64,000 nucleotides of DNA from a virus: positions 1 through 64,000 of IMG/VR virus record IMGVR_UViG_3300042922_000982, one strand, 5' to 3'. The notes beneath the pieces were generated by a model that saw only the letters and a list, made by a program, of their open reading frames with translations, did no database searches and was not told the DNA's origin. The translations under genes and the position numbers were made by a program. Numbering within the stretch: position 1 is the stretch's first letter; every line of letters begins with the position of its first letter. This document shows, piece by piece, positions 32,301-61,816 of the stretch.

Positions 32301-32350
32301 AAAAAAACCGTTCCACCGGCGCCCCAGGGCCCCCAGGAACGGTTTTTTTT
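32301..32350. terminator. Bidirectional terminator overlapping promoter cassette 1
   Basis: A 14-base inverted repeat (7 A + CCGTTCC against GGAACGG + 7 T) flanks a GC-rich loop, giving a U-run on either strand. It ends the 32141 transcript and would stop leftward readthrough. Its right arm is at the same time the GGAACGGTTTTTT element of promoter cassette 1. Confidence 0.8.
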
Positions 32351-32415
32351 GCGTCTGGATAGCAGACAGTAGGGAGGGGCGCGTGCCCCGCCCAGCCTTA
32401 CGCCACCCGTGGCGT
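32334..32415 (+). promoter_or_regulatory. GGAAC promoter cassette 1 with leader hairpins
   Basis: GGAACG at 32336, 16 bases, GATAGC at 32358. A hairpin at 32372-32393 (loop GCGT) starts near the expected +1, and a second at 32400-32415 (ACGCCA/TGGCGT) follows. It drives the gene at 32456. Confidence 0.7.
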
Positions 32416-32455
32416 GGAGGCCCCCGTCACCCCCACCGTTGAAAGGAGAACCGCC

Positions 32456-32860
32456 ATGGCCCCCAAGAACACCACCCCCACCGGCAAGGTCCGCATCTAT
32501 CGCCGCGTCGAGCAGATCGTCGGCCCTGCTTCCTACATCGACACCCTGATCGCCACCTTCGAGGCGATCGGCGACGCGAGCCGCTACGCGCACCACCTGT
32601 CGCAAACCGACATGGCCGACACGGTGATCAAGCAGGGCAAGAACGCCTCGCTGGTGCCGAGCCAGCGCCGGGGCGCCTGCCCGGAGTGCGTCCGGCACTA
32701 CAACTGGAACGACTACATGGGCTCGCGGCGCACCGCCACGGGCACGGGTGCCGCCCAGGTGCGCTGCGATTGCGGCGCCTTGATCGAGCTGGACCTCGGC
32801 TTCCCGATGGGGGGCCACAAGGCCCGGCTGGTGAGCCACGCCCCCGCCCCCGCCCTCTAG
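32456..32860 (+). CDS. Zinc-ribbon-like protein
   Basis: A 134-residue protein. The N-terminal helical part is followed by cysteine pairs C75/C78 (CPEC) and C104/C106 (CDC), likely a zinc knuckle. I chose the ATG at 32456 with the stereotyped GGAGAACCGCC block; the frame is open further upstream in the leader. First gene of cassette 1. Function unknown; nucleic-acid or protein binding is possible. Confidence 0.8.
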   Translation: MAPKNTTPTGKVRIYRRVEQIVGPASYIDTLIATFEAIGDASRYAHHLSQTDMADTVIKQGKNASLVPSQRRGACPECVRHYNWNDYMGSRRTATGTGAAQVRCDCGALIELDLGFPMGGHKARLVSHAPAPAL

Positions 32861-32873
32861 CCCCGCCCATCCC

Positions 32874-32899
32874 CCGGCGGCCCCTTGTGGGGCCGCCGG
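32874..32899 (+). other. Intergenic GC stem-loop
   Basis: A perfect 11-base stem with loop TTGT between two genes and no U-run. Probably an mRNA processing, stability or attenuation element. Confidence 0.6.
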
Positions 32900-32935
32900 T
32901 TGCCCACTACCATGCCCACACAGGAGGATCACCCC

Positions 32936-33463
32936 ATGAACAATGAACAGACCGCCCAGCCTACCCTCGCCCCCTTCGTGTTCTACATGTCCACCAGCTG
33001 GATCATTGAAGAGATGGGAGGGAGCATCAAGGTCGAGGACGTGACGATCAAGCGTCCCGGCCTGCGCCATCCCACCGACGAGGAAATCGCGGCGGGCTGC
33101 GAGGACGCCATGGTGCCCTGCGACGAGGAGGAGGAATACCAGCGCGTGACGCTCTACAGCGTGCCCGGCGCCCGGCGCATCACCCATATCGCGGTCGGCA
33201 CCGGCCGCGTGCCCACCGAGGAGGGCTGGAGCCTGAGCGGCATCACGGTGCGCGAGGACTCGGACACCGACGGCCTGCCCTTCTGGAGCTACGAGCGCAC
33301 CAGCGACGGCGCCGATTGCGACGGCCGCTTGTCGAGCACATGGGATGGCTACTCGGACGGCACGCCCGACCCCGACGCGCCCGCCTACATGGCCGATCGC
33401 TCCAACCTGATCAAGAAGGGCTCGGGCCAGCGCGACTACGCAGCCGAGGCGGCCGGTTACTAG
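32936..33463 (+). CDS. Acidic small protein, unknown
   Basis: A 175-residue acidic protein with AGGAGGATC before the ATG. It shows a strand-rich middle (QRVTLYSVPGARRITHIAVGTG) and a C-terminal DCDGRLSSTWDGYSDG segment rich in Asp and Gly. It lies between two GC hairpins in the cassette 1 transcript. No family recognised. Confidence 0.8.
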   Translation: MNNEQTAQPTLAPFVFYMSTSWIIEEMGGSIKVEDVTIKRPGLRHPTDEEIAAGCEDAMVPCDEEEEYQRVTLYSVPGARRITHIAVGTGRVPTEEGWSLSGITVREDSDTDGLPFWSYERTSDGADCDGRLSSTWDGYSDGTPDPDAPAYMADRSNLIKKGSGQRDYAAEAAGY

Positions 33464-33487
33464 CCCCCTACCCCAACACCCCACCTG

Positions 33488-33507
33488 CCCCGGCCGCGCG
33501 GCCGGGG
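33488..33507 (+). other. Intergenic GC stem-loop
   Basis: CCCCGGCC and GGCCGGGG around a GCGC centre, just before the ribosome-binding site of the next gene. Confidence 0.55.
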
Positions 33508-33527
33508 CCCTATAAGGAGAACGCCCC

Positions 33528-33776
33528 ATGACCCAGCACGAGCGCGCCACGATCACCATCCCCGACGATCGCCCCTACACCCTCACCAACGACCCCATGG
33601 ACGACCTGATGCTCATCGACGACGAGGGCGTCCGGCACCCGATCGGCACGGAGTACGCCGAGGCCCTCGGCGCCAGCGACGAGGAGATCGCGCTGGCCCG
33701 CAAGGGCTACAAGATGGCCCTGCGCACCTGCGCGCTCGACCTGCTCAGCGAGCTGCTCCACGAAGGCGGGGACTAG
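33528..33776 (+). CDS. Small acidic protein, unknown
   Basis: An 82-residue protein (MTQHERATITIPDDR...). It has an acidic middle (DPMDDLMLIDDEG) and a C-terminal helix (LRTCALDLLSELLHE). AAGGAGAAC precedes the ATG. Four bases separate it from the next gene, so the two are probably co-translated. Confidence 0.75.
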   Translation: MTQHERATITIPDDRPYTLTNDPMDDLMLIDDEGVRHPIGTEYAEALGASDEEIALARKGYKMALRTCALDLLSELLHEGGD

Positions 33777-33780
33777 CCCC

Positions 33781-34053
33781 ATGGAGATCAGCCTGAACAC
33801 GACGGGCCGCACGCACCAGGAGGTCTGGCTCGACGGCACCTTGATCGGGTCCGTGCTCACATGGAGCGCGGGCCCCGGCAAACCCCCTCAGTACGAGGCG
33901 CGCACGGCCGACAGCACCCCGATCCGGCTGGGGCCCAACGGCCCCGACCAGGTCATGTACTACGCGACGTCCGCCGAGGCGGCGGGCGCCGTCCTGATGG
34001 CCTACGGCCAGGGCTTCGCCCACGTCACCCCCGGCTGGTTCAAGAAAGGATAA
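33781..34053 (+). CDS. Small protein, unknown
   Basis: A 90-residue protein, beta-rich at the start (ISLNTTGRTHQEVWLDGTLIG) with a helix AEAAGAVLMAYGQG near the end. Its ribosome-binding site GAAGGCGGGG lies inside the end of the preceding gene. Same transcript as its neighbours. No family recognised. Confidence 0.75.
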   Translation: MEISLNTTGRTHQEVWLDGTLIGSVLTWSAGPGKPPQYEARTADSTPIRLGPNGPDQVMYYATSAEAAGAVLMAYGQGFAHVTPGWFKKG

Positions 34054-34058
34054 CAACC

Positions 34059-34322
34059 ATGCCCCACAACCACATGCGCGAGGCCACCGAACTTCGCAAC
34101 GAGATCAAGAGCGCCAAGGAGGCGGCCGACGCCACCATGCCGAACAGCGGGGTATCCGCCAACACCGCCGCGATCGTCGCCGCCCAGGAGGCCGTCACGG
34201 CCAACCAGGCGCTGATGCTCGAGGTGCTGCTCGACATCCGCAGCGTCGCGGTGGCCCAGCTTCAAGAGGCGCGCCGGAACGCGCGGGGCTCGGCGCACCG
34301 GGGCGCCTGCCGGGGCAGTTAG
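34059..34322 (+). CDS. Small helical protein, unknown
   Basis: An 87-residue, mostly helical protein with AAAGGATAAC before the ATG. The central segment (TNQALMLEVLLDIRSVAVAQLQEARR in part) suggests a coiled coil. The stop TAG touches cassette 2, so the gene ends this transcription unit. Function unknown. Confidence 0.75.
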   Translation: MPHNHMREATELRNEIKSAKEAADATMPNSGVSANTAAIVAAQEAVTANQALMLEVLLDIRSVAVAQLQEARRNARGSAHRGACRGS

Positions 34323-34328
34323 GGCCCC

Positions 34329-34390
34329 CAGGAACGGTTTTTTCAGGCCCTGGATAGTAGATAGTAGGGGGAGGGCGCGTGCCCGCCCCC
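34329..34390 (+). promoter_or_regulatory. GGAAC promoter cassette 2 with leader hairpin
   Basis: GGAACG at 34331, 16 bases, GATAGT at 34353. The leader hairpin is 34367-34390 (GGGGGAGGGC, loop GCGT, GCCCGCCCCC). It drives the DUF932 gene. The whole 117-base block to the ATG is nearly identical to cassette 5. Confidence 0.75.
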
Positions 34391-34438
34391 ACCGCCAACC
34401 ACCCCGCAAGGGTGCGCACCGTTAAAAGGAGAACCGCC

Positions 34439-35503
34439 ATGGCTCACAATCTGGAAATCATCAACGGCAAGGCTTCCATGTTCAGCGGCTCGGGCGTCAC
34501 GCCCTGGCACAAGCTGGGCGTGGTGCTCCCGCACAACCTGACGGCCGCCGAGGCGATCGTCGCGGCCAACATGGACTGGGACGTGGAGCTGCGCCCGCTC
34601 TACATCGAGATCCCCGGCAAGAGCGGCCGGATCAAGCACCAGGGCATCGAGATCGCCAAGGCGACGGTGCGCGCCACCGACGACGTGGTGCTCGGCACGG
34701 TCGGCAACGCCTACACCCCGCTCCAGAACCGCGAGGCGTTCGGCTTCATCGACGCGATCCTGAGCCCGAAGGACGCCTGCATCGAGACGGCGGGCGTGCT
34801 CGACGGCGGCCGGTGCATCTGGATCATGGTCAAGCTGCCGAAAGACGTCACCGTGAAAGTCGGCCGCCACAAGGACCTGATCACCAAGTACCTGCTGCTC
34901 ACCAACCGCCACGACGGCTTCGGCTGCGTGACGATCAAGATGACGCCCGTGCGGGTCGTGTGCGCCAACACGCTCTCTCAGGCGCTCAAGGGCGGCGGCA
35001 TCCAGATCCGGCACACCGCCTCGGTGGTGAGCCGCACCCAGAACGCGGTCACCGAGGAGATGGGGCTCACCACCAAGTTCACCGAGAACCTGATGGCGCG
35101 CACCAGCGAGTTCTACGCCAACTTCAGCGAGGCCGCCAACGCCATGGGCGCCACCAAGCTGAACGACGAGCGCACCCGCGAGTTCCTGCTCCGCTGCCTC
35201 AAGCGCCAGGCCACCGAGAAGGACTTGTCCGACGCGGAGGCCGTGCGCGACGCGGGCGGCGAGATCAAGGTGCCCAAGGCGCTCGACAAGTGCCTGGAGC
35301 TGGTCGAGTACGGCATGGGCGCCGACATGGCGAAGGGCACGCTCTGGGGCGCCTACAACGCCCTCACCGAGTACGCCGATCACCACATGGGCTACCGCAA
35401 CGACAACAACCGCCTGCGCAACATCGGCTTCGAGGGCAACGGCAACGCCCTCAAGGTGCGCGCCTTCGCCGAGGCGTGCAAGATGGCCAAGGTCGGCATC
35501 TAA
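34439..35503 (+). CDS. DUF932 family protein
   Basis: A 354-residue protein matching the DUF932/phage-plasmid-like family. It has the N-terminal GxGVTPWHKLGVVLP box, the central KYLLLTNRHDGFGCVTIKMTPVRVVCANTL block and a helical C-terminal domain ending near TEYADHHMGYR. Family members are common on plasmids and large phages; their function is unknown. It is monocistronic-like behind cassette 2 with the full GGAGAACCGCC start block. Confidence 0.9.
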   Translation: MAHNLEIINGKASMFSGSGVTPWHKLGVVLPHNLTAAEAIVAANMDWDVELRPLYIEIPGKSGRIKHQGIEIAKATVRATDDVVLGTVGNAYTPLQNREAFGFIDAILSPKDACIETAGVLDGGRCIWIMVKLPKDVTVKVGRHKDLITKYLLLTNRHDGFGCVTIKMTPVRVVCANTLSQALKGGGIQIRHTASVVSRTQNAVTEEMGLTTKFTENLMARTSEFYANFSEAANAMGATKLNDERTREFLLRCLKRQATEKDLSDAEAVRDAGGEIKVPKALDKCLELVEYGMGADMAKGTLWGAYNALTEYADHHMGYRNDNNRLRNIGFEGNGNALKVRAFAEACKMAKVGI

Positions 35504-35514
35504 CCCCACCCCCA

Positions 35515-35534
35515 CCCCCGGCTTCGGCCGGGGG
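35515..35534 (+). other. Intergenic stem-loop with UUCG loop
   Basis: A perfect 8-base stem closed by the very stable TTCG tetraloop, 12 bases past the DUF932 stop. No U-run. Confidence 0.65.
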
Positions 35535-35552
35535 CTTCAGGAGACAAACGCC

Positions 35553-35714
35553 ATGAATATTCGAGTCGAGGTCACCTACTACTGCGGCCACAAGAAAACC
35601 CAAAAGGTCGGTCAATACGAAACCTCCAAGGGCAAAATTCAGCGCGCCAGCGAGATCAACTGCCCTGATTGCGTTCGTGATGTCAAGGCCCGTAAGGGAA
35701 CGGTCCTGAGTTAA
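35553..35714 (+). CDS. Short zinc-knuckle-like protein
   Basis: A 53-residue protein (MNIRVEVTYYCGHKK...) with C11, H13, C37 and C40 (CPDC) suited to zinc binding. Codon use is unlike the neighbours: ATT, GTT, CGT, GAA, CAA and AAA are frequent, giving a clearly lower GC content. That suggests recent acquisition. The RBS is AGGAGAC. Confidence 0.75.
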   Translation: MNIRVEVTYYCGHKKTQKVGQYETSKGKIQRASEINCPDCVRDVKARKGTVLS

Positions 35715-35721
35715 CCCATGC

Positions 35722-35743
35722 CCCCGGCCGCGCGCGGCCGGGG
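35722..35743 (+). other. Intergenic GC palindrome
   Basis: A perfect 22-base palindrome of C/G only, directly before the AAGGAG of the next gene. As RNA it forms a tight hairpin. Confidence 0.6.
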
Positions 35744-35761
35744 CTTTCAAGGAGATCCGCC

Positions 35762-36313
35762 ATGACCACCCCGACCCCCGCCCCCTTCCGCTTCACTGAG
35801 ATGGACCGCGCCGAGATGGGCTACGCCAACGACCTGCTCTCGGAGCACGGCGTCACCATTCGCCCCGTGCCCGACGAGAACAGCGTGATCGCCTACGACG
35901 CCGACGACGAGGAAATTTACCGCACGCCCGACATGTGCTCCATGGTCGACTTCGTCAACGGCTACGCCGTCTGCGCCGGGCGCATGAGCCCGGCCGCCAC
36001 CCCGCAGGCCAGGCATTGCGAGCGCTGCGGCGGCCCCTACTACGCCAAGGCCCGCTGCCAGCCCTGCTACAAGCACCGCTGGGATCGCGGCGTGGAGCGC
36101 CCGCTGCCCGTCACGGACGGCAAGCCCTGGGAGGTCCTCACGATCAAGCGCGCCGCCGACGGGCGCTACCGCTGGCACGTCCACGGGATCAACCACTACA
36201 CCAAGGAGCCGTTCTACTGGAACGTCGCCGACATCGCCGACCCCCAGTACGGCACCGACAACGTCATCGTCGGCGCCGAGCTGATCGCCGAGGCGAGAAA
36301 GGCCCAGCCGTGA
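35762..36313 (+). CDS. Zinc-finger protein, unknown
   Basis: A 183-residue protein. Residues 86-102 form a four-cysteine finger (C86ERC89 and C99QPC102) flanked by basic residues. The N-terminus includes an acidic strand region (YDADDEEIYRT). The last codons overlap the GTG start of the next gene (GTGA). Possible nucleic-acid binder. Confidence 0.8.
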   Translation: MTTPTPAPFRFTEMDRAEMGYANDLLSEHGVTIRPVPDENSVIAYDADDEEIYRTPDMCSMVDFVNGYAVCAGRMSPAATPQARHCERCGGPYYAKARCQPCYKHRWDRGVERPLPVTDGKPWEVLTIKRAADGRYRWHVHGINHYTKEPFYWNVADIADPQYGTDNVIVGAELIAEARKAQP

Positions 36314-36687
36314 CGGCGCGCATCCTGCCCCCGCACCCGATCGGCGCGGGCCAGCCGTTCACCTGGGACGACGTGTTCGCGCACGCCAAGGCCGAGGCCG
36401 AGGCCGTGGCGCCCGTGAGCGAGCTGCTCGCCCTGCTTCCCAAGGGCACCGTCCTGCTCGCGCTGGACGGCTCGCGCTGGCTGTTTGTCGACGAGTGGCT
36501 CGCCAAGCACGGCGATCAATGGCTCAAGCCGGACACCTACGGCCTGGCCACCATGAACGCCGTGCACGAGAGGGGCGGCCGGATTCGAATCTTGCGCCGC
36601 GAGCTGCACCAGGCGGCCGAGGCGTACGACCCCACGATGGCCCTTGTCTGGCACGGCCAGGTCATCAAGTTTCATCTGCCCCGCTAA
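36310..36687 (+). CDS. Small protein, unknown
   Basis: A 125-residue protein starting at GTG that overlaps the preceding TGA, so expression is coupled. A helix (VFAHAKAEAEAVAPVSELLAL) precedes a strand region (GTVLLALDGSRWLFVDEWLA). No family recognised. Confidence 0.75.
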   Translation: MTARILPPHPIGAGQPFTWDDVFAHAKAEAEAVAPVSELLALLPKGTVLLALDGSRWLFVDEWLAKHGDQWLKPDTYGLATMNAVHERGGRIRILRRELHQAAEAYDPTMALVWHGQVIKFHLPR

Positions 36688-36777
36688 CGCCCTGGCGGTG
36701 CCTGGTTCTTGCCGGGCGCCGCCCTCGACTGCTAACATAACAACCACCGCCACCCCCACCGACAACGGAGAACCGCC

Positions 36778-37578
36778 TTGCTACACCCACACGAAATTCA
36801 CCTGCCCGGCTGCGCGCCACAGGCACCCGCCACCCCCGCCACCAAGACATGCCCCGCCTGCCGCATCGACCTCCCCGCCGTCGCCTTCAACTTGTGCCGC
36901 TCGCGGCGCGACGGCTTGCAAGTGTACTGCCGCCCCTGCCACGACAACAAGAAGCTGCAAGCCCGCATGCGCGCGATCGCCATCGAGGTGGCCCGCAAGA
37001 CGGCCGAGGCCGAGGCGATCGCCCAGGGCGCCTACGCCCGCGAGGAGGCGGCCCTATCCATTCTGGATCGGGCCGCCGCCACCGAGGCCGAAAACGACCG
37101 GCTGCACGACGCGCTCGCCTTCGACCGCGTGCGCATGCTGGAGCTTCACGCCCGGCTATCCGCCCTCGAGTCCCAGTTGTCCGGCCGCGCGGCCCCCGCC
37201 GCCCCCGCCGACTGGAAGGCCGACGCCGTCGCCTCGGTGCACCGGGCCCTGCGCCACGAGATGGGCTTCGCGCTCGACGAGCTGCGCGAGCGCTTCGGCC
37301 GCGCGGACGGCGTCGACCGCGCGCTCGACGCGGCGGCCTTCGCCGAGAGCAACTTCCCCGGTGACTCCCACGCCATGCGGCTCATCTTCAAGAAGGCGGT
37401 CCGCATCCACCTGCGCCCCATGATCGAGGGCGCGCTCATGACGCGCGAGCACGACAACAACCAATGGGGCCGCAGCATCTGGATCGCCCAGATCGGCCGC
37501 GAGTACCGCATCGCCTACGACCTGAAGGGCGATCGCCCGGCGTTCGTCAAGACCTCGACGCGCGCCTGCTTTTTCTAG
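36778..37578 (+). CDS. Zinc-finger plus coiled-coil protein
   Basis: A 266-residue protein using TTG, because the conserved block GGAGAACCGCC lies exactly where it precedes ATG elsewhere. Residues 25-54 match the CxxC...F...DGLQxYCRxCH finger seen beside HNH nucleases and in many phage proteins. Residues 60-135 are a long charged helix, and the C-terminal 100 residues form a separate domain with YRIAYDLKGDRPAF. No nuclease residues are evident. A weak sigma70-like TAACAT at about 36733 may serve it. Confidence 0.8.
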   Translation: MLHPHEIHLPGCAPQAPATPATKTCPACRIDLPAVAFNLCRSRRDGLQVYCRPCHDNKKLQARMRAIAIEVARKTAEAEAIAQGAYAREEAALSILDRAAATEAENDRLHDALAFDRVRMLELHARLSALESQLSGRAAPAAPADWKADAVASVHRALRHEMGFALDELRERFGRADGVDRALDAAAFAESNFPGDSHAMRLIFKKAVRIHLRPMIEGALMTREHDNNQWGRSIWIAQIGREYRIAYDLKGDRPAFVKTSTRACFF

Positions 37579-37600
37579 CCCCGTCCCCTCACCCCCCATC

Positions 37601-37655
37601 GCCCGCCCCGGCAGGGAAGCGCAACCGTGCGCGGCCCGCACCGGGGCGGGCTTTT
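37601..37655 (+). terminator. Terminator-like hairpin
   Basis: Arms GCCCGCCCCGG and CCGGGGCGGGC (11 bases) enclose a 29-base inner region and are followed by TTTT. The next gene's start block begins only a few bases later, so it probably attenuates rather than stops. Confidence 0.6.
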
Positions 37656-37671
37656 GACAAGGAGAACCGCC

Positions 37672-38262
37672 ATGGATCCCAACGCCAACATCGCCGAGCA
37701 GCGGCGCATCACCGCCCAAATACTCGACGTCAACGACCCCGGTCGGCTCGACGAGCTGGCCGTTCGGCTTGCCGAGCTGAGCCAGGCCCTCGACGAGTGG
37801 CGCCGAAAGGGCGGCTTCGACCCGTACCTGGGGGCCCCCGAGTACGTCGGCAACAACATGGCGGCCCAGCGCGAGCTGGCGTCGAGCATCGTGGGGGCCT
37901 GGCGCGCGCCCGGCGGCGCCTACGAGCCCGCCGACGGCGCCAAGCTCGCCGAGATGGTGCTGGCGCACGCCGCGCCCGCCAAACCCGACGCCATGCGCGC
38001 GCTGGCCCTTGAGATCACGGCCATGTATGAGGGCGACGGCGAGAGCGGCAACATCGCCGCCAAGGCGTACGCGCTCGCCGACATGGTGATCTGCCAGCCG
38101 CCCACGCTGGCGCTCACCAACGATCAGCGCGCCAAGCTGCGCCAGGCGGCCTCCGAGCGCGGCGAGGAGGTGACGCCCGAGTACCTGCACGAGCAGGCCG
38201 AGCGGGCGCTCGCGATCGGCGTGAACACCATTTACGAGCCGGACTACGACGAGCGCGTGTAG
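37672..38262 (+). CDS. Helical protein, unknown
   Basis: A 196-residue, largely helical protein (AEQRRITAQILDVNDPGRLDE...) with the full AAGGAGAACCGCC start block. A stretch AVRLAELSQALDEWRRKGGFD and the C-terminal PEYLHEQAERALAIG helix are visible. It ends 13 bases before a strong terminator, so it closes the transcript. No family recognised. Confidence 0.8.
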   Translation: MDPNANIAEQRRITAQILDVNDPGRLDELAVRLAELSQALDEWRRKGGFDPYLGAPEYVGNNMAAQRELASSIVGAWRAPGGAYEPADGAKLAEMVLAHAAPAKPDAMRALALEITAMYEGDGESGNIAAKAYALADMVICQPPTLALTNDQRAKLRQAASERGEEVTPEYLHEQAERALAIGVNTIYEPDYDERV

Positions 38263-38275
38263 GCGATCGCGCGGA

Positions 38276-38303
38276 GGCCCGCCCCCACCGGGGCGGGCCT
38301 TTT
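38276..38303 (+). terminator. Rho-independent terminator before dnaN
   Basis: A 10-base perfect stem GGCCCGCCCC/GGGGCGGGCC with loop CACC and TTTT. It separates the small-gene array from the clamp gene. Confidence 0.85.
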
Positions 38304-38355
38304 GTCGTTTGTGGTGTCGGTTTACAAACCTTCTAACAGGCAGGCCCGGCCGCCT

Positions 38356-38363
38356 GGTATCAT
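38356..38363 (+). promoter_or_regulatory. Possible extended -10 promoter for dnaN
   Basis: TGGTATCAT carries an extended -10 (TG-n-TATCAT) in the 200-base gap between a terminator and the clamp gene. No good -35 is visible. A nearby 12-base palindrome (GGTTTACAAACC, 38320-38331) could be an operator. The remaining gap is leader sequence resembling the ACCACGG/GTGG hairpins of other leaders. Confidence 0.4.
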
Positions 38364-38504
38364 GGCCGCGTGCGACCCTGCGCATGCCCCTCCCTAAAGG
38401 GGCCGTCACCCCCGCCTTCCGCCACCCGGTCATAGCGACCACGGTGCGTGGAGGCCCCAGCCACCCGCGCCCGCCGGGCGCCACCGAAAGGATCCACCAC
38501 CCGC

Positions 38505-39632
38505 ATGAAGTTCACCATCGAACAGGCCGCCCTTCGTGAGTTGCTCTCCAAGGTGCGCCCCTTCATCTCGACCCGCGCGCCCCAGCCGGTGCTGAACAAC
38601 TTTTTGATCGGCGTGAAAGACGGCACGCTGTCGGTCTACGGCACCGACATGGAGTGCACCATGATGACCGGCACCACCCTGCTCGCCGCCACCGACGGCC
38701 GCGTGACGGTGCCTGCCAAGCAGCTGACGGACATCGTCGGCAAGCTGCAAGGCGGCCCGATCGACATCACCTGCGAGGACGGCGTCGAGACCGTCGTCAA
38801 GCAGAAGCGGACCACCTTCAAGCTGCGCGGCATGGTCGCAGCCGAGTACCCGGATCCCAAGGTGCCGCAGGGCGAGCCGGTCCTTGAGCTGGAGGCGAGC
38901 CTCCTGCTCGACATGATCACGCGCACGAGCTACGCCATCATGGGCGGCGAGAACGCGGGCGTTTTGGGCGGCATGTGGCTGCGCCTGCAAGGCGGGCGCC
39001 TGGAGGCGTGCGGCACGGACGGCTTCCGCTTGAGCCACTACGTCAGCGAGTTCGACGCCGACGGCGAGTTCACCGTGATCATCCCGCGCCGCGCCGCCTC
39101 CGAGGTCGCCAAGCTGCTCAAGGGCGCGCAGGGCGCCGTCAAGCTCTTCGAGTCGCGCGGGGAGCTGGGCATCGAGGTCAACGGCGGCGAGGCGTTCATG
39201 ACGACCCGGCACCTCGACGGGCTCTACCCGCCCTTCTGGCAGGTGATCCCCAAGGAGTCCATGCAAACGGTCTACCTGGACCGCCAGAGCCTGATCGACG
39301 CGGTCGACCGCGTGTCGATCATGACCAGCGAGCTGGAGGCGGACCTCATCACGCTCAACTTCGCCGGGGGCGAGCTGACGATCAAGGCCACCCGCGACGC
39401 GACGGGCAGCGGCTCGGACGTGGTCAACTGCGCCGAGGTGTCCGAGCCCTTCGAGGTGCTCATGAAGGCGGGCTACCTGCTCGACTCGCTCAAGAGCAAC
39501 GATTCGGCCAACGTCGGCTTCTTCTTCGCGGGCAAGGGCAAGCCCTGCCTGCTGGTTTCCGACCGCGAGGGTGATCCGCTCACCAGCTTGATCATGCCGT
39601 TCCAGCAGCCGAACGCCCCCGCCCAGGCGTAG
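38505..39632 (+). CDS. dnaN: DNA polymerase III sliding clamp (beta)
   Basis: A 375-residue protein with the DnaN length and three-domain layout (about 1-120, 125-250, 255-370). Visible marks include the N-terminal AALRELLSKVRPFISTRAPQPVLNNFLIG, the domain 2 ACGTDGFRLSHY box and the C-terminal TSLIMPFQ that forms the peptide-binding pocket edge. It would tether a polymerase to DNA in the cytoplasm. Most phages borrow the host clamp; coding their own suggests an independent replisome. It has its own upstream terminator and probable promoter. RBS GAAAGGA is unusually distant (12 bases). Confidence 0.92.
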   Translation: MKFTIEQAALRELLSKVRPFISTRAPQPVLNNFLIGVKDGTLSVYGTDMECTMMTGTTLLAATDGRVTVPAKQLTDIVGKLQGGPIDITCEDGVETVVKQKRTTFKLRGMVAAEYPDPKVPQGEPVLELEASLLLDMITRTSYAIMGGENAGVLGGMWLRLQGGRLEACGTDGFRLSHYVSEFDADGEFTVIIPRRAASEVAKLLKGAQGAVKLFESRGELGIEVNGGEAFMTTRHLDGLYPPFWQVIPKESMQTVYLDRQSLIDAVDRVSIMTSELEADLITLNFAGGELTIKATRDATGSGSDVVNCAEVSEPFEVLMKAGYLLDSLKSNDSANVGFFFAGKGKPCLLVSDREGDPLTSLIMPFQQPNAPAQA

Positions 39633-39635
39633 GCC

Positions 39636-39914: not shown

Positions 39915-39943
39915 CCCCGCCCCCCTCTTTGTGGAGGACCCCC

Positions 39944-40183: not shown

Positions 40184-40202
40184 GAAAATGGGCCAGGGCC
40201 CC

Positions 40203-40283: not shown

Positions 40284-40323
40284 GGAGGCCCCCGTTACCC
40301 CCACCGACGAAAGGACAACCCCC

Positions 40324-40653: not shown

Positions 40654-40673
40654 TCGGCGCCTTCCTGGGCCCC

Positions 40674-53708: not shown

Positions 53709-53773
53709 CCCCGACGCCTGCCGCCCACCCGTTACCCCCACCCCCGTTACCCCCATCGATAAGGAGAACCGCC

Positions 53774-54589: not shown

Positions 54590-54591
54590 CC

Positions 54592-55415: not shown

Positions 55416-55421
55416 GGCCCC

Positions 55422-55489
55422 CAGGAACGGTTTTTTCGGGGCCTGGATAGTAGATAGTAGGGAGGGGGCCGGGCAACCGGCGCCCCTCC
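55422..55489 (+). promoter_or_regulatory. GGAAC promoter cassette 9 with leader hairpin
   Basis: GGAACG at 55424, 16 bases, GATAGT at 55446. Hairpin 55461-55489: GGAGGGG/CCCCTCC enclosing GCCGG-GCAA-CCGGC with a GNRA loop. Confidence 0.74.
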
Positions 55490-55522
55490 TCCGCTACCCC
55501 CACCGACGAAAGGACACCCGCC

Positions 55523-55957
55523 ATGAACACCAAGAACCCGCACCTCCCCACCCACAAGGGCGCCCACACCAAGGGCCCGAACCACTGGATCATCACCCGC
55601 GATCACTTCGCCGACGCGAACGAGCGCATGGGCACCAACGCCAACGCGCCCGGCGTGCGCTCGCGCAAATGCCCGATCGACCCCGACCTGACCGGCCTCA
55701 CCGCCGATCAGGCCGCCGAGAAGATCGCAAAGCTCGCCAAGGCGGCGGGCATGACCCTGCGCTTCCGCCTGCTCGCCGACGGCGATTCGGACGGCGAGCT
55801 GGAGCTTGTCTACGAGGGCTACATGATGCCCTTCGACCGCCACAACGAGAACGCCGACGGCTTCGAGCCGCAGGACAACTTCGGCGAGGGCAACTTCGGC
55901 ACCACCACGCTCCAGTACTGGAAGCCCGGCAAGGGCGGCGGCTGGGCGATCCTGTAA
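55523..55957 (+). CDS. Unknown protein
   Basis: A 144-residue protein with GAAAGGACACCCGCC upstream. The centre has a helix (TADQAAEKIAKLAKAAG) next to strands (MTLRFRLLADGDSDGELELVYEG). First gene of cassette 9. No family recognised. Confidence 0.78.
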   Translation: MNTKNPHLPTHKGAHTKGPNHWIITRDHFADANERMGTNANAPGVRSRKCPIDPDLTGLTADQAAEKIAKLAKAAGMTLRFRLLADGDSDGELELVYEGYMMPFDRHNENADGFEPQDNFGEGNFGTTTLQYWKPGKGGGWAIL

Positions 55958-55979
55958 CCGCACCCCCAAGACCCCCACG

Positions 55980-56002
55980 CCCCGGCGCCGCAAGCGCCGG
56001 GG
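55980..56002 (+). other. Intergenic GC stem-loop
   Basis: 9-base stem CCCCGGCGC/GCGCCGGGG with loop CGCAA, followed by CCTT only; before the next start. Confidence 0.55.
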
Positions 56003-56022
56003 CCTTCAAGGAGAATCGCCCC

Positions 56023-56646
56023 ATGTCCCACGAACACCAGATGGCCTACCAGACCTCCCAATCTCGCGGCGTGCCGGTCGGCGACGCCCTCTTGATCAAG
56101 CGGGTCCGCGAGGACGGCCTCTTCGCGGTTGTTGAGCACGCCCCGAACTACTGCCGCCACACCGACGCCCTCTTGCCCGGCGTGACGCGCTACCTGCGCG
56201 GGGCCTACACCACGCGCCAGGAGGCCGCCGAGCGCTGCGCGCTCGCCGCCGACACGCCCGGCAACGAGTCGGCCTACAGCGTGGAGGAGCCCACCTTCAA
56301 GCCGGGCTTCGACCCGCGCCTGGGCGCGCCCTACGAGCGCTTCGCGCGCGGCTACGAACAGGCCCTCACCGATCGCCGCGAGAAGGGGCACGACCCCAAG
56401 GTGCTGCTGGCCCCCACCAAGGACGGCGGCTTCGTCATGCAAGACCGCGACGCTTTCCACTTCGACGGCTACGAGCGCGGCCTGGTGGCCACCGCCGCGC
56501 CCGAGATCACCGGCCCGGTGCCGGGTGTCGAGGAGGCGTGGCACCTGTACCAGCGCGATTGGGCCAGCGAGTACGCCCTGCTGGCCATCGACTCGCACGA
56601 CGCCTGGGCGGCGGCCGTGTGGATCGCCCCCTTCATGCACGAATAG
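56023..56646 (+). CDS. Unknown protein
   Basis: A 207-residue protein with AAGGAGAATCG upstream. Two helical stretches (TTRQEAAERCALAAD, YERFARGYEQALTDRR) and a C-terminal EEAWHLYQRDWASEYALLAI helix are visible. No family recognised. Confidence 0.78.
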   Translation: MSHEHQMAYQTSQSRGVPVGDALLIKRVREDGLFAVVEHAPNYCRHTDALLPGVTRYLRGAYTTRQEAAERCALAADTPGNESAYSVEEPTFKPGFDPRLGAPYERFARGYEQALTDRREKGHDPKVLLAPTKDGGFVMQDRDAFHFDGYERGLVATAAPEITGPVPGVEEAWHLYQRDWASEYALLAIDSHDAWAAAVWIAPFMHE

Positions 56647-56653
56647 CCCCACC

Positions 56654-56676
56654 GGCGCCCGGCCCCACCGGGCGCC
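56654..56676 (+). other. Intergenic GC stem-loop
   Basis: 9-base stem GGCGCCCGG/CCGGGCGCC with loop CCCCA, directly after the previous stop; no U-run. Confidence 0.55.
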
Positions 56677-56724
56677 CCGTTGTCCCCACCGCCAACCGGC
56701 CCAAACGGGCCAAGGAGAACCGCC

Positions 56725-57225
56725 ATGCACCCTCAGTCCTTCCCCATGGGCCCGTACGGGGCCGCCTACTTGACGCCGGATCCGTCCGGCACGAACGTCG
56801 AGCTTCACCTCTTCACGCCGGGCGAACCGCTCGGGTATGCCTTCATTGACGGCCGCCGCGCCATCCTGCACCTGCACCGGCTGCTCTACCGGGCCACGAC
56901 GGCCAAGGCGGACGCCCGGACGGGAGATGTGCCCGTGTTCCTCGAGATCCTCGAGGGCACCGAGATCACGGCGCGCGTCTCGGGGGTCGCCCCGAACCGC
57001 GACGCCGGGCGGGGCAGCGTGCGCTTGTTCGAGCCGATCGGGCATCGCTACACCGATGGCGAGATCTACGCGGATCGCACGCACGACAAGCCCGCGCGCT
57101 TCTTCATGGTGGAGGGCTACGGCCACCTGAGCGATCTCCGCGAGGCGATCGCCGTTTACCTGGGCGTCGACGAGGGTGCCATTGCGGAAGAGCTGGGTAT
57201 CACCGATGCGGAATTGGGAGGGTAA
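56725..57225 (+). CDS. Unknown protein
   Basis: A 166-residue protein with the full start block; a short CGGCCC/GGGCCA repeat precedes it. N-terminal strands (VELHLFTPGEPLGYAFIDG), a helix (RAILHLHRLLYRATTAK) and a helical end. No family recognised. Four bases from the next gene. Confidence 0.78.
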   Translation: MHPQSFPMGPYGAAYLTPDPSGTNVELHLFTPGEPLGYAFIDGRRAILHLHRLLYRATTAKADARTGDVPVFLEILEGTEITARVSGVAPNRDAGRGSVRLFEPIGHRYTDGEIYADRTHDKPARFFMVEGYGHLSDLREAIAVYLGVDEGAIAEELGITDAELGG

Positions 57226-57229
57226 GATC

Positions 57230-57607
57230 ATGACCATGCAAATCGGATCGTACATCGTCACGCAGCCCACCACGTTCGACGGGGTGGGCGGGGGCCAGGT
57301 TGTCGTCGCCCCCGGCACCTACCCGGTCACGGGCTCGCTCAACATCGACGGGTCGGTGGTCGACTTGTGGGTGATCGCCAAGATGCCCGCCACCGAGGTG
57401 GGCTCGGAGCGCGCTGTGCCGCACGCGATCGCCATGCGCGGCGCGGACCTGGCCCGGCAACTGCTCGACGGCACCTCGCCGGTCACCCTCGCGGGCGGCT
57501 TCGAGGCCATCGGGGTCGGCCCCATCGTCACGCACAACCAGGGCACGCCGCAAGAGGCCACCTTCCAGCGCGCCCGCATCGTTCGAAAGGCTCACACCCT
57601 TGTCTAA
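57230..57607 (+). CDS. Small beta-rich protein, unknown
   Basis: A 125-residue protein starting at ATG 57230 (GGGAGGGTAAG upstream). Strand-rich (IGSYIVTQPTTFDGVGGGQVVV). Its end overlaps the TTG start of the next gene by 8 bases. No family recognised. Confidence 0.75.
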   Translation: MTMQIGSYIVTQPTTFDGVGGGQVVVAPGTYPVTGSLNIDGSVVDLWVIAKMPATEVGSERAVPHAIAMRGADLARQLLDGTSPVTLAGGFEAIGVGPIVTHNQGTPQEATFQRARIVRKAHTLV

Positions 57608-58010
57608 TCACTACTGGCTCGGCGAGACGATCGCCGTCACGCAGCGCGACGGGCGCGGCGTGTTCATCTGGAACGGCCGCGAGTTCGACTCGCCCAAGTC
57701 GGCGCAAGAGGCCATCGGCGCGGAGCTTGAGGCCAACATGGCCGCGCTCAAGGCGCAGGGGCTCACCGCCTACGGCTTCACGGGCTACATGACGGGCAGC
57801 AGCACGCAGATGCGCGTGGTGGTGGCCGCCAAGAGCAAGGCGGCGATCGCCCGCGCCATCGGGGCGCGGACGCCGCCCGTGTGCACGCCGACCGGCAACC
57901 CGGCGGATCTTCGGGCGGCTGCAAGCAAGCCTGGCGCCTTCTTCGCCAAGCCGCTCGCCGGGTACGGGCAAGCACTCAGCGAGGTCGACCCTACCAAGAT
58001 CCGGGCCTGA
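57600..58010 (+). CDS. Unknown protein with TTG start
   Basis: A 136-residue protein starting at TTG inside the previous gene (GAAAGG upstream). A strand hairpin (VTQRDGRGVFIWNGREFDS) is followed by a helix (AQEAIGAELEANMAALKAQG). No family recognised. Confidence 0.72.
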   Translation: MSNHYWLGETIAVTQRDGRGVFIWNGREFDSPKSAQEAIGAELEANMAALKAQGLTAYGFTGYMTGSSTQMRVVVAAKSKAAIARAIGARTPPVCTPTGNPADLRAAASKPGAFFAKPLAGYGQALSEVDPTKIRA

Positions 58011-58015
58011 TGCGG

Positions 58016-58045
58016 TATCATGGCGGTCCTTGAGGGAGGACCGCC
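58016..58045 (+). promoter_or_regulatory. TATCAT -10 and RBS-enclosing hairpin
   Basis: TATCAT (58016-58021) is followed at once by a perfect 9-base hairpin, GGCGGTCCT (58022-58030) and AGGACCGCC (58037-58045), touching the ATG at 58046. Its loop and right arm hold the Shine-Dalgarno GAGGGAGGA. The ribosome site may be masked until the hairpin opens. Confidence 0.5.
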
Positions 58046-58369
58046 ATGACCTCGTTTGACCCGCTCGCCCCCGACTACGGCTGCGACCTCGCACGCCACT
58101 TCCCCGCGCCCAAGTCGGCCGAGGAGCTGATCACCCTGCTGGCCGAGGGGGGCGGCAAGCCCCCCGGCGAGCTGGCGCTCGAATTGGCTCGCGACGCCTG
58201 GCCGCAGCACGACATCGCGAGCGCGCGCATCGTCGGCAACACCCTGGAAGCCCAGCTGGCCGTGCCGATCAACGTCATCACCATCACGGCCAGCTGGACC
58301 CCCAGCACGACCCCCGCCATGCCCGCCACGGAGACCCCCGCCGATGCCGACCGCCCCGACGCCCCCTGA
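58046..58369 (+). CDS. Small protein, unknown
   Basis: A 107-residue protein whose ribosome-binding site lies in a hairpin. It has a helix with SAEELITLLAEGGGKPPGELA and a strand part (LEAQLAVPINVITITASW), ending in a Pro/Asp tail. It overlaps the next gene by 26 bases. Confidence 0.73.
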   Translation: MTSFDPLAPDYGCDLARHFPAPKSAEELITLLAEGGGKPPGELALELARDAWPQHDIASARIVGNTLEAQLAVPINVITITASWTPSTTPAMPATETPADADRPDAP

Positions 58370-58559
58370 GCCCTTTCAAGAGCCCTCCGTGGCCGAGCAG
58401 CTGGCCACCGCGCACACCATCATCGGGCGCCAGCGCGTGAGCCTCGAGACCCTGCAAGCCGAGCTGGCCAAGGTGCAGGCCAACATGGCCACGCTGCGCG
58501 CCGAGCGCAACCACCTGCGCGATCGCCTCGCGGCCCTGGAACACCCGCATGACTTCTAG
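58344..58559 (+). CDS. Small coiled-coil protein
   Basis: A 71-residue protein; residues 17-65 are heptad-like (LETLQAELAKVQANMATLRA). It overlaps both neighbours, so the three are coupled. Probably a multimerising accessory protein; partner unknown. Confidence 0.7.
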   Translation: MPTAPTPPEPFQEPSVAEQLATAHTIIGRQRVSLETLQAELAKVQANMATLRAERNHLRDRLAALEHPHDF

Positions 58560-59052
58560 CCACCGCCGCCCCGCGCGCGACAACGTGGCCGCATGGGGCG
58601 GGGACCTCATTCACGCCCGACTGGGCGCCTACCCGACCGGCTTCGGGGCGGCGTACGCCTACGACACCGGCCGGTGGCGCGTCCGGTTCGTGTGGGGCGG
58701 CACCGAGACGGTGGTGTCGGGCGGCGGCTTCATCGAGACGTTCACCGACGGGCTCAAAGGCGTGTTCACCTCGGCGCGCGCGGCCGGGGCGAGCGCGCGC
58801 AAGGGCGCCTGGGTCGAGCCGCCGCGCATGGCCGACCCCGGCCGCATCCCCGAGTGGATCGACGGCCTGCTCTCGCCGGTGATCGGCGGCGGGGCCAACG
58901 GGCTCGGGCTCTCCGACTTCGGGCTCGCGTACAATTTCACCGACCACACCTGGCGCTGCGTCTTGCGCCAGGGCCCGGCGCGCTGGGAGGCGCGCCACAA
59001 ATACATCGAGGACGCGGTGGCGCAGGCCGCCTACCGTGCAATGGGGCGATAG
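58549..59052 (+). CDS. Unknown protein
   Basis: A 167-residue protein overlapping the previous gene by 11 bases. Gly/aromatic-rich strands (GFGAAYAYDTGRWRVRFVWGG) are followed by a helical end (EDAVAQAAYRAMG). No family recognised. Confidence 0.75.
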   Translation: MTSSHRRPARDNVAAWGGDLIHARLGAYPTGFGAAYAYDTGRWRVRFVWGGTETVVSGGGFIETFTDGLKGVFTSARAAGASARKGAWVEPPRMADPGRIPEWIDGLLSPVIGGGANGLGLSDFGLAYNFTDHTWRCVLRQGPARWEARHKYIEDAVAQAAYRAMGR

Positions 59053-59071
59053 CCCCGAAAGGAGAACCGCC

Positions 59072-59638
59072 ATGTTCAATCCCATCGGCACGCCCAAGGG
59101 CAAGCCCACCGCGCTCGATGATCGCACCGAGCTGGTCGTCTATGCTCGATCCGGGCGCAACCCGCTTTACGTGATCGTTCAGGACGGCGTCAACGTTGTC
59201 GCGCTCGAAAGCGAGGGCACCAGCGGCTGGCGCATCGAAATGCACACCGCCCCCGTCGGCAAGGGGCCCTTCGGCTACTTGCGCCTGCGCCCGTACGGCC
59301 AGCACGACAAGAACTTCTTCGGCAAGGATGAGGCCCTGGCTGCGGCGCGCGCGGCGCTCGCCTACTCGCTCGGCGACTGGATGCGCTACCAGGCCGCATC
59401 CGAGCGCAGCAAGCTGATCGAGCGCACCCACCGCGTCGCGAAAGACCTCGTCTTCACGCACAAGCAACTTCAGGAGCGATACAACGACTTCAAGGAGGTC
59501 TCGACCAACACCAACGGGCTCATGGATCTCGCCAGGGGCCTCGACCTCATGAAAGAGGCGCAGCAGCGCATCGAGTCGGCGGCCAAGGCGCTAAAAGACG
59601 ACGCGTTCCTCGACCTCGGGCTTCCCGTCACCCCGTAA
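59072..59638 (+). CDS. Unknown protein with C-terminal coiled coil
   Basis: A 188-residue protein with the full start block. Strands at first (TELVVYARSGRNPLYVIVQD), then a long helix from about residue 110 (KDLVFTHKQLQERYNDFKEV). No family recognised. Confidence 0.78.
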   Translation: MFNPIGTPKGKPTALDDRTELVVYARSGRNPLYVIVQDGVNVVALESEGTSGWRIEMHTAPVGKGPFGYLRLRPYGQHDKNFFGKDEALAAARAALAYSLGDWMRYQAASERSKLIERTHRVAKDLVFTHKQLQERYNDFKEVSTNTNGLMDLARGLDLMKEAQQRIESAAKALKDDAFLDLGLPVTP

Positions 59639-59664
59639 TCCCCACCACGACAAGGAGAACCGCC

Positions 59665-60249
59665 ATGACTCAAGCACACACCTGGCCGAACCCGGAGTTC
59701 GTCCACCTGCGCGGCAAGGAGGCCGTCGAGCACGTCCGGCGCCACGGCGGCACCCTGCTCAGCGTGCCGCGCGGCGTCAAGGGCGCGCCGTTCAAGATCA
59801 CGCTCGACGACGCGGACGCCCGGATGCAAGACCCCGGCTTCGACGCCTACAACGGCCTGATGGCCAAGGTGCCGCTGCGCGACTACCTCGATCGCGTCGT
59901 TGAAGATCAGTTGGGCGCCGACGTGGAGGACCCCGAGATCCTCGCCACCACCCCCTTCGGGCGCGGCTTCGAAGGGCTGATCGAGCCGACGGGGATCGAG
60001 TGCAATTCGATCATCCTGGTGCTACTCGACGCGCCCGCCTACGGCACCAACCGGCACCGGGCCGCGCAGGGCACCTGGGCCCTCAGCTTCCTCTACGGCT
60101 CGGGCGACGGCGAGTGCCAGAGCAACTGGGCGATCGCCAAGGGCTTTCACGGGATCGCCGAGGCCATGTGGCAAGAGCACGAGGCGCGCGCAGCCGAGGA
60201 GGCCGCGCTCAATGACCGCCTGCTGGCGGCGGAAGGGGAGGGCTTCTAG
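59665..60249 (+). CDS. Unknown protein
   Basis: A 194-residue protein with the full start block (MTQAHTWPNPEFVHLRG...). Mixed alpha/beta, acidic, ending in a helix (MWQEHEARAAEEAALNDRLL). The next ATG follows at once. No family recognised. Confidence 0.78.
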   Translation: MTQAHTWPNPEFVHLRGKEAVEHVRRHGGTLLSVPRGVKGAPFKITLDDADARMQDPGFDAYNGLMAKVPLRDYLDRVVEDQLGADVEDPEILATTPFGRGFEGLIEPTGIECNSIILVLLDAPAYGTNRHRAAQGTWALSFLYGSGDGECQSNWAIAKGFHGIAEAMWQEHEARAAEEAALNDRLLAAEGEGF

Positions 60250-60250
60250 C

Positions 60251-60535
60251 ATGACGGACGCTCTCGCCATCGAGGTCCAGCGGGCCTACGTCCTGACCGC
60301 GCACGCCCGCGCGGAGAAATTCGCCGGGGTGGCCGCCTCGGTGCGCCAGCAGGCGATCGTACTGAAGGGCATCCTCGACGAGTTACCCGCAGGCACCGGC
60401 ACGCAGGGGCTCGCCGCCTTCGACAAGCTCATGGCCGCCGTGCACGCGCTCGACGCCGCCGACACCCACGCCCACGAGATCGCGGGCAACGCGCTCTCCT
60501 TGCTCAACGACATGGAGGTCCCCCGTGGGAACTGA
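60251..60535 (+). CDS. Small helical protein, unknown
   Basis: A 94-residue all-helical protein (LAIEVQRAYVLTAHARAEKFAG). It begins just after the previous stop and overlaps the next GTG start. Part of a tightly coupled group ending at 61809. Confidence 0.75.
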   Translation: MTDALAIEVQRAYVLTAHARAEKFAGVAASVRQQAIVLKGILDELPAGTGTQGLAAFDKLMAAVHALDAADTHAHEIAGNALSLLNDMEVPRGN

Positions 60536-61337
60536 AAACCGCGAAGGCAAGCTTGCCTGTAAGGCTTGCGGGGCCTACATACCCGTCACCTTCACCGATG
60601 AACGTCAGAACGTGCGCTGCCCGCAGGCCGCGTGTCGCGAGGTCTCGACCGTGCCGACCTTCGCCGAGGCGCGGGCCGTGTGCATCTATCCGGCGGCGAC
60701 CCCGCAGGCCCCGGCGCCGAGCGTGGCCCCGATGGGCTACACGATCGCCGTCGAGGAGGTGGTGCCCTTCTTTCTCACCATCACGAGCGACAACGGGCAG
60801 ACGACCGAGTGGGAGATCGACGAGCAAAACGACAAGGTGCGCGCCGACCTGGAGCGCCTCGGCTTCCGCTTGACGGACGCGAAGCGCGGGCTCTGGCTGC
60901 CGCCCGTGCCGCCCATGTACCTGATCGCCACCTCGCACGATAGCCCCGACGACTTCGCGCACCACCTGATCGGCCCCTTCGCGGGCCGCGACGAGGCGTT
61001 CGCCACCGCGCTCGACGACCCGAGCTACTCCAGCACGTCGGGGGCGTGGGAGCCGACCACCTGGGTGGCGGATCCGAGCGATCACTACGGCTTCCGGCCG
61101 GACAAGCGCCACCCGGCGCTCGGCGGGCTTCCTGCCCCGGAGGTCCTGGCGCCGGGCGAGGTGCTGCGCGCGCGCATCGCGTACCGCACGCGCATGGCCG
61201 ACGTGCTGCGCGCGCGGCTCACGGCGCGCCCCGACGCGACGTACCTGCTCGCCCAGGCCGAGGCCATGGAGGCGGCGATCGCCGTGGCGCACGCCTGGCT
61301 CGACGCCCAGGGCGAGCTGGAGGCCCCCCGTGGCTGA
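60525..61337 (+). CDS. Zinc-ribbon protein, unknown
   Basis: A 270-residue protein starting at GTG. Residues 12-37 hold CKAC...CPQAAC (C12, C15, C32, C37), a zinc-ribbon. The rest is mixed, with a C-terminal helical region (VLRARLTARPDATYLLAQAE). Eight-base overlap with the next gene. Confidence 0.76.
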   Translation: MGTENREGKLACKACGAYIPVTFTDERQNVRCPQAACREVSTVPTFAEARAVCIYPAATPQAPAPSVAPMGYTIAVEEVVPFFLTITSDNGQTTEWEIDEQNDKVRADLERLGFRLTDAKRGLWLPPVPPMYLIATSHDSPDDFAHHLIGPFAGRDEAFATALDDPSYSSTSGAWEPTTWVADPSDHYGFRPDKRHPALGGLPAPEVLAPGEVLRARIAYRTRMADVLRARLTARPDATYLLAQAEAMEAAIAVAHAWLDAQGELEAPRG

Positions 61338-61809
61338 GGGCGCGATCAGCTACTTCGTGCTGGGCTACAAGGGCGGCACGAACACCGTCAAGCTGCTCGA
61401 GTGGGCGCCCGAGCGGGTCAGCATCCGGGGCGCGCGCGGCGAGGTGACCGAGCAAGTCGGCGGCTGGGCCTCCGACATGGAGGAGTCGCTCTACAACCTG
61501 CGCTCACAGCTGCCGGACGGCCTGTTCGCGGCCTACGTGACCCTGTGGTGCAGCCAGGGGATGGAGGACTGGGATCAAGGCGAGCACCTGCTCGCGGTGA
61601 TGCCCGTCGAGACGATCGCCTGGCGGCACACCTGGGGCCCCTTGCGCACCACGCACGAGGAGCGGCGCTACGCGGCCGACAAGGAGCTGGTCGCGCACAT
61701 GCGCGCCATGGAGGCCCAGTGGGACGCCGAGGCCGCCGAAATCAACGCGGCGATGGGCCTTGACGCGCCCGGCGGGCCCCCAGGAACGCTTTTTCACCCG
61801 CCTGGATAG
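61330..61809 (+). CDS. Unknown protein whose stop lies in a promoter -10
   Basis: A 159-residue protein from GTG. Strands and helices (YFVLGYKGGTNTVKLLEWAP). Its last residues, GPPGTLFHPPG, are encoded by promoter cassette 10 and its TAG stop is in GATAGT, just as in the gene ending at 49287. Confidence 0.75.
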   Translation: MAEGAISYFVLGYKGGTNTVKLLEWAPERVSIRGARGEVTEQVGGWASDMEESLYNLRSQLPDGLFAAYVTLWCSQGMEDWDQGEHLLAVMPVETIAWRHTWGPLRTTHEERRYAADKELVAHMRAMEAQWDAEAAEINAAMGLDAPGGPPGTLFHPPG

Positions 61810-61816
61810 TGGAGGG
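61781..61816 (+). promoter_or_regulatory. GGAAC promoter cassette 10 (degenerate)
   Basis: GGAACG at 61783, 16 bases, GATAGT at 61805. The T-run is preceded by CGC instead of CGG, and the leader hairpin is missing. It is the most diverged copy but spacing is kept. Confidence 0.6.

Follow-up and report, generated by a model that had tools for sequence, protein, structure and literature searches.

Known phage promoter regulons are read by the housekeeping sigma factor, by a phage sigma factor or by a phage polymerase, and phage SPO1 uses the phage-encoded sigma factors gp28 and gp34. In the phiEco32-like phages, the phage sigma factor gp36, which is of the extracytoplasmic function (ECF) type, reads several phage promoters (PMC4281155), so that the kind of system considered here is already known. 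For ECF promoters, spacers of N17-20 and a T-tract after the −35 element are documented (PMC11588781; PMC6767563). In Corynebacterium the sigma-D promoters have the form GTAAC(A/G)...GAT and the sigma-H promoters the form GGAAT/C...GTT (PMC6338062), and for the cyanobacterial SigG a −35 element GGAAC and a −10 element GTC have been predicted in Synechocystis (PMC8155712). Here we analyse a window of 64,000 bases, namely bases 1-64000 of the 157,406-bp virus record IMGVR_UViG_3300042922_000982, with searches that covered the whole record where stated. The window carries repeated cassettes composed of GGAACG, 16 bases and GATA, and we propose that they are probably bipartite phage promoters of the alternative-sigma (ECF-like) type, which would give their mRNAs a 5'-hairpin cap.

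The pattern GGAACG-N16-GATA is found 10 times in the window, compared with a mean of 0.03 and a maximum of 1 in dinucleotide shuffles. In the whole record 17 copies are present, all on the plus strand between 32336 and 86591, with the seven beyond the window located at 69133, 74570, 75388, 78208, 80994, 85137 and 86591 (record coordinates), and no copy lies on the minus strand of the record. The spacing is exact: the altered spacings GGAAC-N15-GATA, GGAAC-N16-GATA and GGAAC-N18-GATA do not occur in the record, the motif itself being N17 when counted from GGAAC. With a matrix constructed from the 17 copies, the scores of the members range from 35 to 80 bits, whereas no other site on either strand of the 157 kb exceeds −8; the members are scored here on their own matrix, an effect that is far exceeded by the gap of more than 40 bits. 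An earlier note on this DNA had reported the ten window copies on the plus strand, the invariant 16-base gap from GGAACG to GATA, the variants GATAGT, GATAGC and GATAAC, and the extensions CCCCCAGG, a T-run and AGTAGGGAGGG; copies and variants are all present as described, the extensions are borne out by the information per column, and the search of the rest of the genome adds the seven further copies.

The cassettes are confined to a rightward gene module, with one cassette per 1-20 genes. The next called start follows GATA at 47-123 nt, and all the cassettes are codirectional with the gene that follows, which agrees with the 40-130 bases and the plus orientation given by the earlier note. 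The placement before genes needs one correction, since three of the 17 copies (49261, 61783 and 78208) cover the last codons of the upstream called open reading frame (ORF), which ends at the TAG of GATAG. Five copies start 9-10 nt past the end of the previous gene, and in several copies the stop codon TAG of the previous gene runs straight into GGCCCCCAGG. Note that the genes were called by our own simple codon-usage caller rather than by a published program.

Each cassette is arranged in the order of a GGGCCCCCA box, GGAACGG, a T-tract, GGATAG, AGTA, a strong hairpin (in 15 of the 17 copies) and the ribosome site of a plus-strand gene. Counting the first G of GGAACG as position 1, positions −8 to 0 are conserved as GGGCCCCCA, positions 1-12 as GGAACGGTTTTT and positions 22-26 as GGATA, followed by mostly GTAGA at 27-31 and by AGTAGGG at 33-39, with the positions 14-20 being variable. 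The upstream edge is sharp, with the conservation ending abruptly 5' of GGG, and downstream the next called gene usually starts behind AAGGAGAACCGCC. Divergence has affected the centre and the leader but neither the two boxes nor their spacing, so that selection appears to act on a bipartite site.

It was also considered whether GGAACGGTTTTTT could be the 3' half of terminators. This fits copy 1, with its CCGTTCC/GGAACGG stem at 32308-32342, and possibly the region 40662-40679, and it is rejected as a general explanation because the other copies have no upstream arm; moreover, a GC stem followed directly by a T-run, as expected of an intrinsic terminator, is not found at the cassettes generally. 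In the region 32308-32349, behind a short ORF (about 32140-32278), the GGAACGGTTTTTTTT of cassette 1 doubles as the 3' arm of a perfect CCGTTCC/GGAACGG hairpin, so that at this cassette the promoter −35 element and a terminator-like element overlap.

The boxes are unlike those of housekeeping promoters. TANNNT boxes occur in 1 of 15 cassette regions, compared with 6.2 expected, and no sigma-70 type promoter was reported at the cassettes. In the intergenic regions that carry no cassette, the box TA[CT][AC][AC]T is enriched, with 10 compared with 2.5 expected on the minus strand and 7 compared with 1.4 on the plus strand, although the enrichment is somewhat overstated because this narrower box was picked after the regions had been viewed. 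It often appears there as gcTACAATgg and is absent from the cassettes, and those other intergenic regions thus seem to use TANNNT-type, housekeeping-type promoters.

By contrast, the features of the cassettes match those of published ECF promoters: the −35 element GGAACG is present in 17 of 17 copies with a T-tract adjacent to it, the spacing GGAAC-N17-GATA is fixed in all of them, and the −10 element begins with GAT as in sigma-D promoters. This is the basis of the ECF-like reading. The promoters of sigma-D and sigma-H in Corynebacterium glutamicum resemble the cassettes in the −35 element, in the GAT or GTT of the −10 element and in the spacing of N17-20, and one natural hybrid promoter there has GGAAC (PMC6338062, PMC11588781). 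They differ in that they are single host stress promoters, whereas the phage has 17 near-identical copies that combine GGAAC with GAT and add the GGGCCCCCA box and the 5' hairpin; C. glutamicum is moreover an actinobacterium, which the phage host probably is not. With the cyanobacterial SigG the cassettes share the predicted −35 element GGAAC. The phiEco32-like phages parallel the reading proposed here in that an ECF-type sigma factor serves a regulon of several phage promoters, but there the motif is tAATGTATAtA, the promoters are six middle and late ones and the sigma factor is a small separate protein, whereas here 17 copies are present and no small ECF gene was found. The earlier note had suggested an ECF-type regulon, and its argument from the non-housekeeping look stands, with the GGAAC −35 element, the T-tract, the fixed spacing, the lack of TANNNT and the single orientation before gene starts.

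The leader after AGTA, which the earlier note had left out of its description, is predicted to fold into a compact hairpin in 15 of the 17 copies, the first base of the hairpin being leader nucleotide 4-6. The hairpin sequences vary (with loops GCGU, GCAA, ACGC and others) and the position is constant. In leader windows of 50 nt, 15 of 17 pass the hairpin criterion, compared with a mean of 7.0 and a maximum of 13 in 300 shuffled sets; a looser hairpin control was dropped, as 45% of random windows passed it. The mean minimum free energy of the leaders is −26.2 kcal/mol, compared with −20.6 kcal/mol in dinucleotide shuffles (standard deviation 0.68, minimum −22.4). At 62582-62633 a copy resembling the leaders at 32391 and 40259 stands with no promoter cassette, which suggests that leaders move or duplicate separately.

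Based on these features, the following pathway can be proposed. Host RNA polymerase with an alternative sigma factor of ECF-like specificity would bind GGAACG(G) as the −35 element and GGATAG as the −10 element, the two being separated by a fixed spacer in which the T-tract makes up the half next to the −35 element. From the usual distance between the −10 element and the start, we infer that transcription would begin about 7-10 nt downstream, within AGTAGGG. With the start at this place, no more than a few unpaired bases would precede the GC-rich hairpin at the head of the mRNA. Hairpins that start only a few bases from the 5' end of an mRNA are known to slow its decay, and the most likely role of the hairpin here would be to shield the mRNA end from decay. 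In this way the 17 cassettes would form one regulon that activates the rightward module at 32-92 kb, with its roughly 120 small genes. As to the sigma factor that reads the cassettes, we place a host ECF sigma factor (SigG-like) first, as a plausible though tentative choice; the sigma-SNF2 fusion protein of the phage itself, which is described below, and a phage factor that escaped detection come behind it as two weaker possibilities of similar standing; and the housekeeping sigma factor with an activator comes last.

Several points weigh against this proposal. A phage ECF-like sigma gene, which the earlier note had suggested, does not appear in six-frame searches of the record, where TIGR02937, PF04542 (Sigma70_r2) and PF08281 (r4_2) give no match and PF04545 (Sigma70_r4) gives only two sub-threshold matches, although a very divergent ECF sigma factor could escape such searches. 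The −10 element GTC predicted for SigG differs from the GAT of the cassettes, although that motif was predicted for Synechocystis and may not be that of the host, and the host itself is judged from composition. As for the hairpin, single leaders have modest z-scores, with a mean of about −1.2, and copies 45909 and 61783 have no standard hairpin. The alignment-based fold of the leaders gives no consensus structure and therefore no covariation proof, and the 17 leaders are not independent because they fall into a few near-identical families.

Among the other explanations, the one that survives best is that the cassettes are read by a sigma-70-like domain of the phage's own, possibly delivered with the virion; we regard it as possible but less likely than a host ECF sigma factor. 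This domain lies in a 2,123-amino-acid protein encoded at record positions 93587-99958 (minus strand), which has an Ala/Lys-rich N-terminus, a sigma-70-like region at about residues 290-545 and, at the C-terminus, SNF2 and helicase domains at about residues 1390-2040. Within it the Pfam model Sigma70_r3 matches at 98540-98758 of the minus strand with E 1e-11, above the Pfam cut-off. NCBIfam sigma models align to residues 337-518, the best being the cyanobacterial RpoD subfamily TIGR02997 (E 1.6e-9 for the excised region); none of the scores comes near the curated cut-offs, so that the region is a relative rather than a member. The sequence matches of the region in the PDB are all sigma factors. 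An AlphaFold2 single-sequence model of residues 285-560 is poor (predicted local distance difference test score, pLDDT, of 57), and the Foldseek list obtained with it consists mostly of sigma factors, with Synechococcus SigA at the top (E 7e-4), a similarity that is local only because the template modelling score is about 0.2.

The location of the gene is also consistent with this explanation. The gene sits in the portal/terminase module and shares with the structural module a second promoter-like class, TG(G/T)CAAA (Table 1); because of this location and this common promoter class, the protein would fit a virion protein. SNF2-bearing polyvalent proteins have been proposed to be injected, and DarB of phage P1 is a head component (PMC5512222). 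Like the present protein, these are giant multidomain SWI2/SNF2 proteins encoded near head genes; the phage protein adds the sigma-70-like region. It can be imagined that the fusion is packaged, enters together with the phage DNA and, as a virion-delivered sigma factor, takes hold of host RNA polymerase and brings it to the 17 cassettes, which we consider rather unlikely. On the other side, the domain has region 3 and resembles a primary sigma factor, a region 2-3-4 sigma-70-like domain in an SNF2 fusion not being an ECF architecture, whereas the promoter looks ECF-like. Regions 2 and 4 are matched only through long models and through Foldseek on the poor model, and by eye the melting aromatics of region 2.3-2.4 and region 4 appear degenerate. 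The giant protein might instead inhibit or recycle the polymerase, and its packaging and injection are putative. In a tblastn search the protein has no match in the phage collection. We did not find a sigma-SNF2 fusion described, which is not proof that none has been described, and by a word count "sigma" is absent from PMC5512222.

Alternatively, the housekeeping sigma factor could read the cassettes with the help of an activator, of phage or host origin, that binds at GGGCCCCCAGGAACGG in the manner of T4 MotA or of class II activators. The conserved upstream box does reach beyond a normal −35 element, GATAGT and TATAAT have A2 and T6 in common, a TG sometimes stands before GATAGT, the phage encodes helix-turn-helix proteins, and the TG(G/T)CAAA class has an upstream box as well. 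This is nevertheless improbable, since 14 of the 15 cassette regions have no TANNNT, though the genome uses such boxes elsewhere, the GATAAC and GATAGC copies lack T6, both boxes are invariant and their spacing is exactly fixed. Even less credit is given to the explanation that the repeats are non-promoter protein-binding sites or dispersed repeats (operators, stoperators or recombination cassettes) copied across the module. It would account for the very high identity over about 50 bp, for pairs such as cassettes 34322 and 43736, which are 95% identical over 105 nt, for the sharp upstream edge and for the leader pieces that recur with no promoter part at 62582, but not for the single orientation, the constant place just before gene starts, the absence of copies elsewhere in the 157 kb and the retention of boxes and spacing in a diverged surrounding. 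It is very improbable that the repeats are promoters for a single-subunit or other polymerase encoded by the phage: the elements are long, strand-specific, highly conserved and confined to one module, but they consist of two ECF-like boxes around a variable centre, and no polymerase gene was seen, the search of the record for the T7-type polymerase PF00940 giving no match in control genomes either and thus not showing absence.

The octamer GCGATCGC (HIP1), which is over-represented in many cyanobacteria (PMC5101192), occurs 191 times in the record compared with 24 expected, an 8-fold excess (for example at window positions 424, 1647 and 3646). The G+C content of the record is 68%. From this excess, this composition and the likeness of the sigma domain to cyanobacterial SigA, our best guess of the host is a high-GC cyanobacterium; an actinobacterial host, the initial assumption, was dropped after the GCGATCGC count. 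It remains a guess because no psbA/psbD family gene (PF00124) was found in the record and the relatives of the DUF932 and DUF1643 proteins point away from cyanobacteria. The site CCCGGG occurs once in the record compared with 108 expected, which suggests restriction-site avoidance.

The genome around the cassettes is divided into three parts. Minus-strand structural genes occupy 1-32 kb. The rightward module at 32-92 kb has 121 genes of at least 45 amino acids, small and mostly of unknown function; nearly all of the 79 module proteins scanned have no Pfam match, with the exceptions of DUF932, a DNA polymerase III sliding clamp, DUF6011 and a few weak matches. Among the genes on the minus strand at 92-157 kb are those for portal, terminase, head maturation protease, thymidylate kinase, ThyX and SSB, as well as DNA methyltransferases and a DnaC-like loader. 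The sole tRNA gene found in the record, for tRNA-Ala (TGC), lies at 92552-92640 (minus strand) beside the DUF1643 gene, where the rightward and leftward modules meet, and no known RNA family was found in the window.

The head and sheath proteins share 28-33% identity with their counterparts in SPO1-like phages and in some Bacteroides phages, and 28-32% with those of SPO1. SPO1 is thus a structural relative, but its promoter motifs differ, and the sigma-like domain here is inside a giant SNF2 fusion. No relative at the DNA level was found in the phage collection searched, and none emerged when IMG/VR was scanned with the major head, tail sheath and giant protein sequences as seeds. Scans of IMG/VR and GTDB genomes for the cassette pattern gave scattered single matches per stretch with no other cassette features, which were judged to be chance.

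The second promoter-like class, TG(G/T)CAAA-N27/28-TANNNT, was spotted by eye before it was counted; it has 6 copies compared with 0.07 under a dinucleotide-Markov null. Its copy 32020 heads the structural module, and its copy 100052 is upstream of the giant sigma-SNF2 gene.

Table 1. Cassettes, rightward module and TG(G/T)CAAA-class copies (window coordinates unless marked as record).
Feature	Position	Strand	Upstream box	−35	−10	Hairpin	Remark
Cassette 1	32327..32393	+	GGGCCCCCA 32327-32335	GGAACG 32336-32341	GATAGC 32358-32363	32372-32393	T-tract between the boxes
Cassette 2	34322..34390	+		34331	GATAGT 34353	34367-34390
Cassette 3	40196..40261	+		40205	GATAGT 40227	40241-40261
Cassette 4	40667..40750	+		40676	GATAAC 40698	40712-40750
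Cassette 5	43736..43804	+		43745	GATAGT 43767	43781-43804
Cassette 6	45900..45958	+	GGCCGGTTC	45909	GATAGC 45931	45941-45958, out of register	most divergent, 35 bits
Cassette 7	49252..49330	+		49261	GATAGT 49283	49297-49330	upstream ORF stop TAG 49285-49287
Cassette 8	51105..51185	+		51114	GATAGT 51136	51150-51185
Cassette 9	55415..55495	+		55424	GATAGT 55446	55460-55490	closing pairs to 55456-55495
Cassette 10	61774..61830	+		61783	GATAGT 61805	weak short hairpin only	overlaps upstream ORF end
Rightward module, window part	32456..64000	+					continues to about 91.8 kb of record
TG(G/T)CAAA copy	4313	−
TG(G/T)CAAA copy	16572	−
TG(G/T)CAAA copy	32020	−
TG(G/T)CAAA copy	46228	+
TG(G/T)CAAA copy	100052 (record)	−
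TG(G/T)CAAA copy	129056 (record)	−

What sets this phage apart within the known kind is that its genome combines such a promoter code, with a hairpin built in, and a sigma-SNF2 fusion. The phage is large and deeply divergent, and its code is unusually clean, with 17 cassettes and nothing intermediate in the genome. Should the cassettes be read by a host stress sigma factor, the module of small genes would be tied to the stress state of the host; if the fusion reads them, it would represent a new way to deliver promoter specificity. The phage is thus a testable case of a virus redirecting the transcription machinery of its host.

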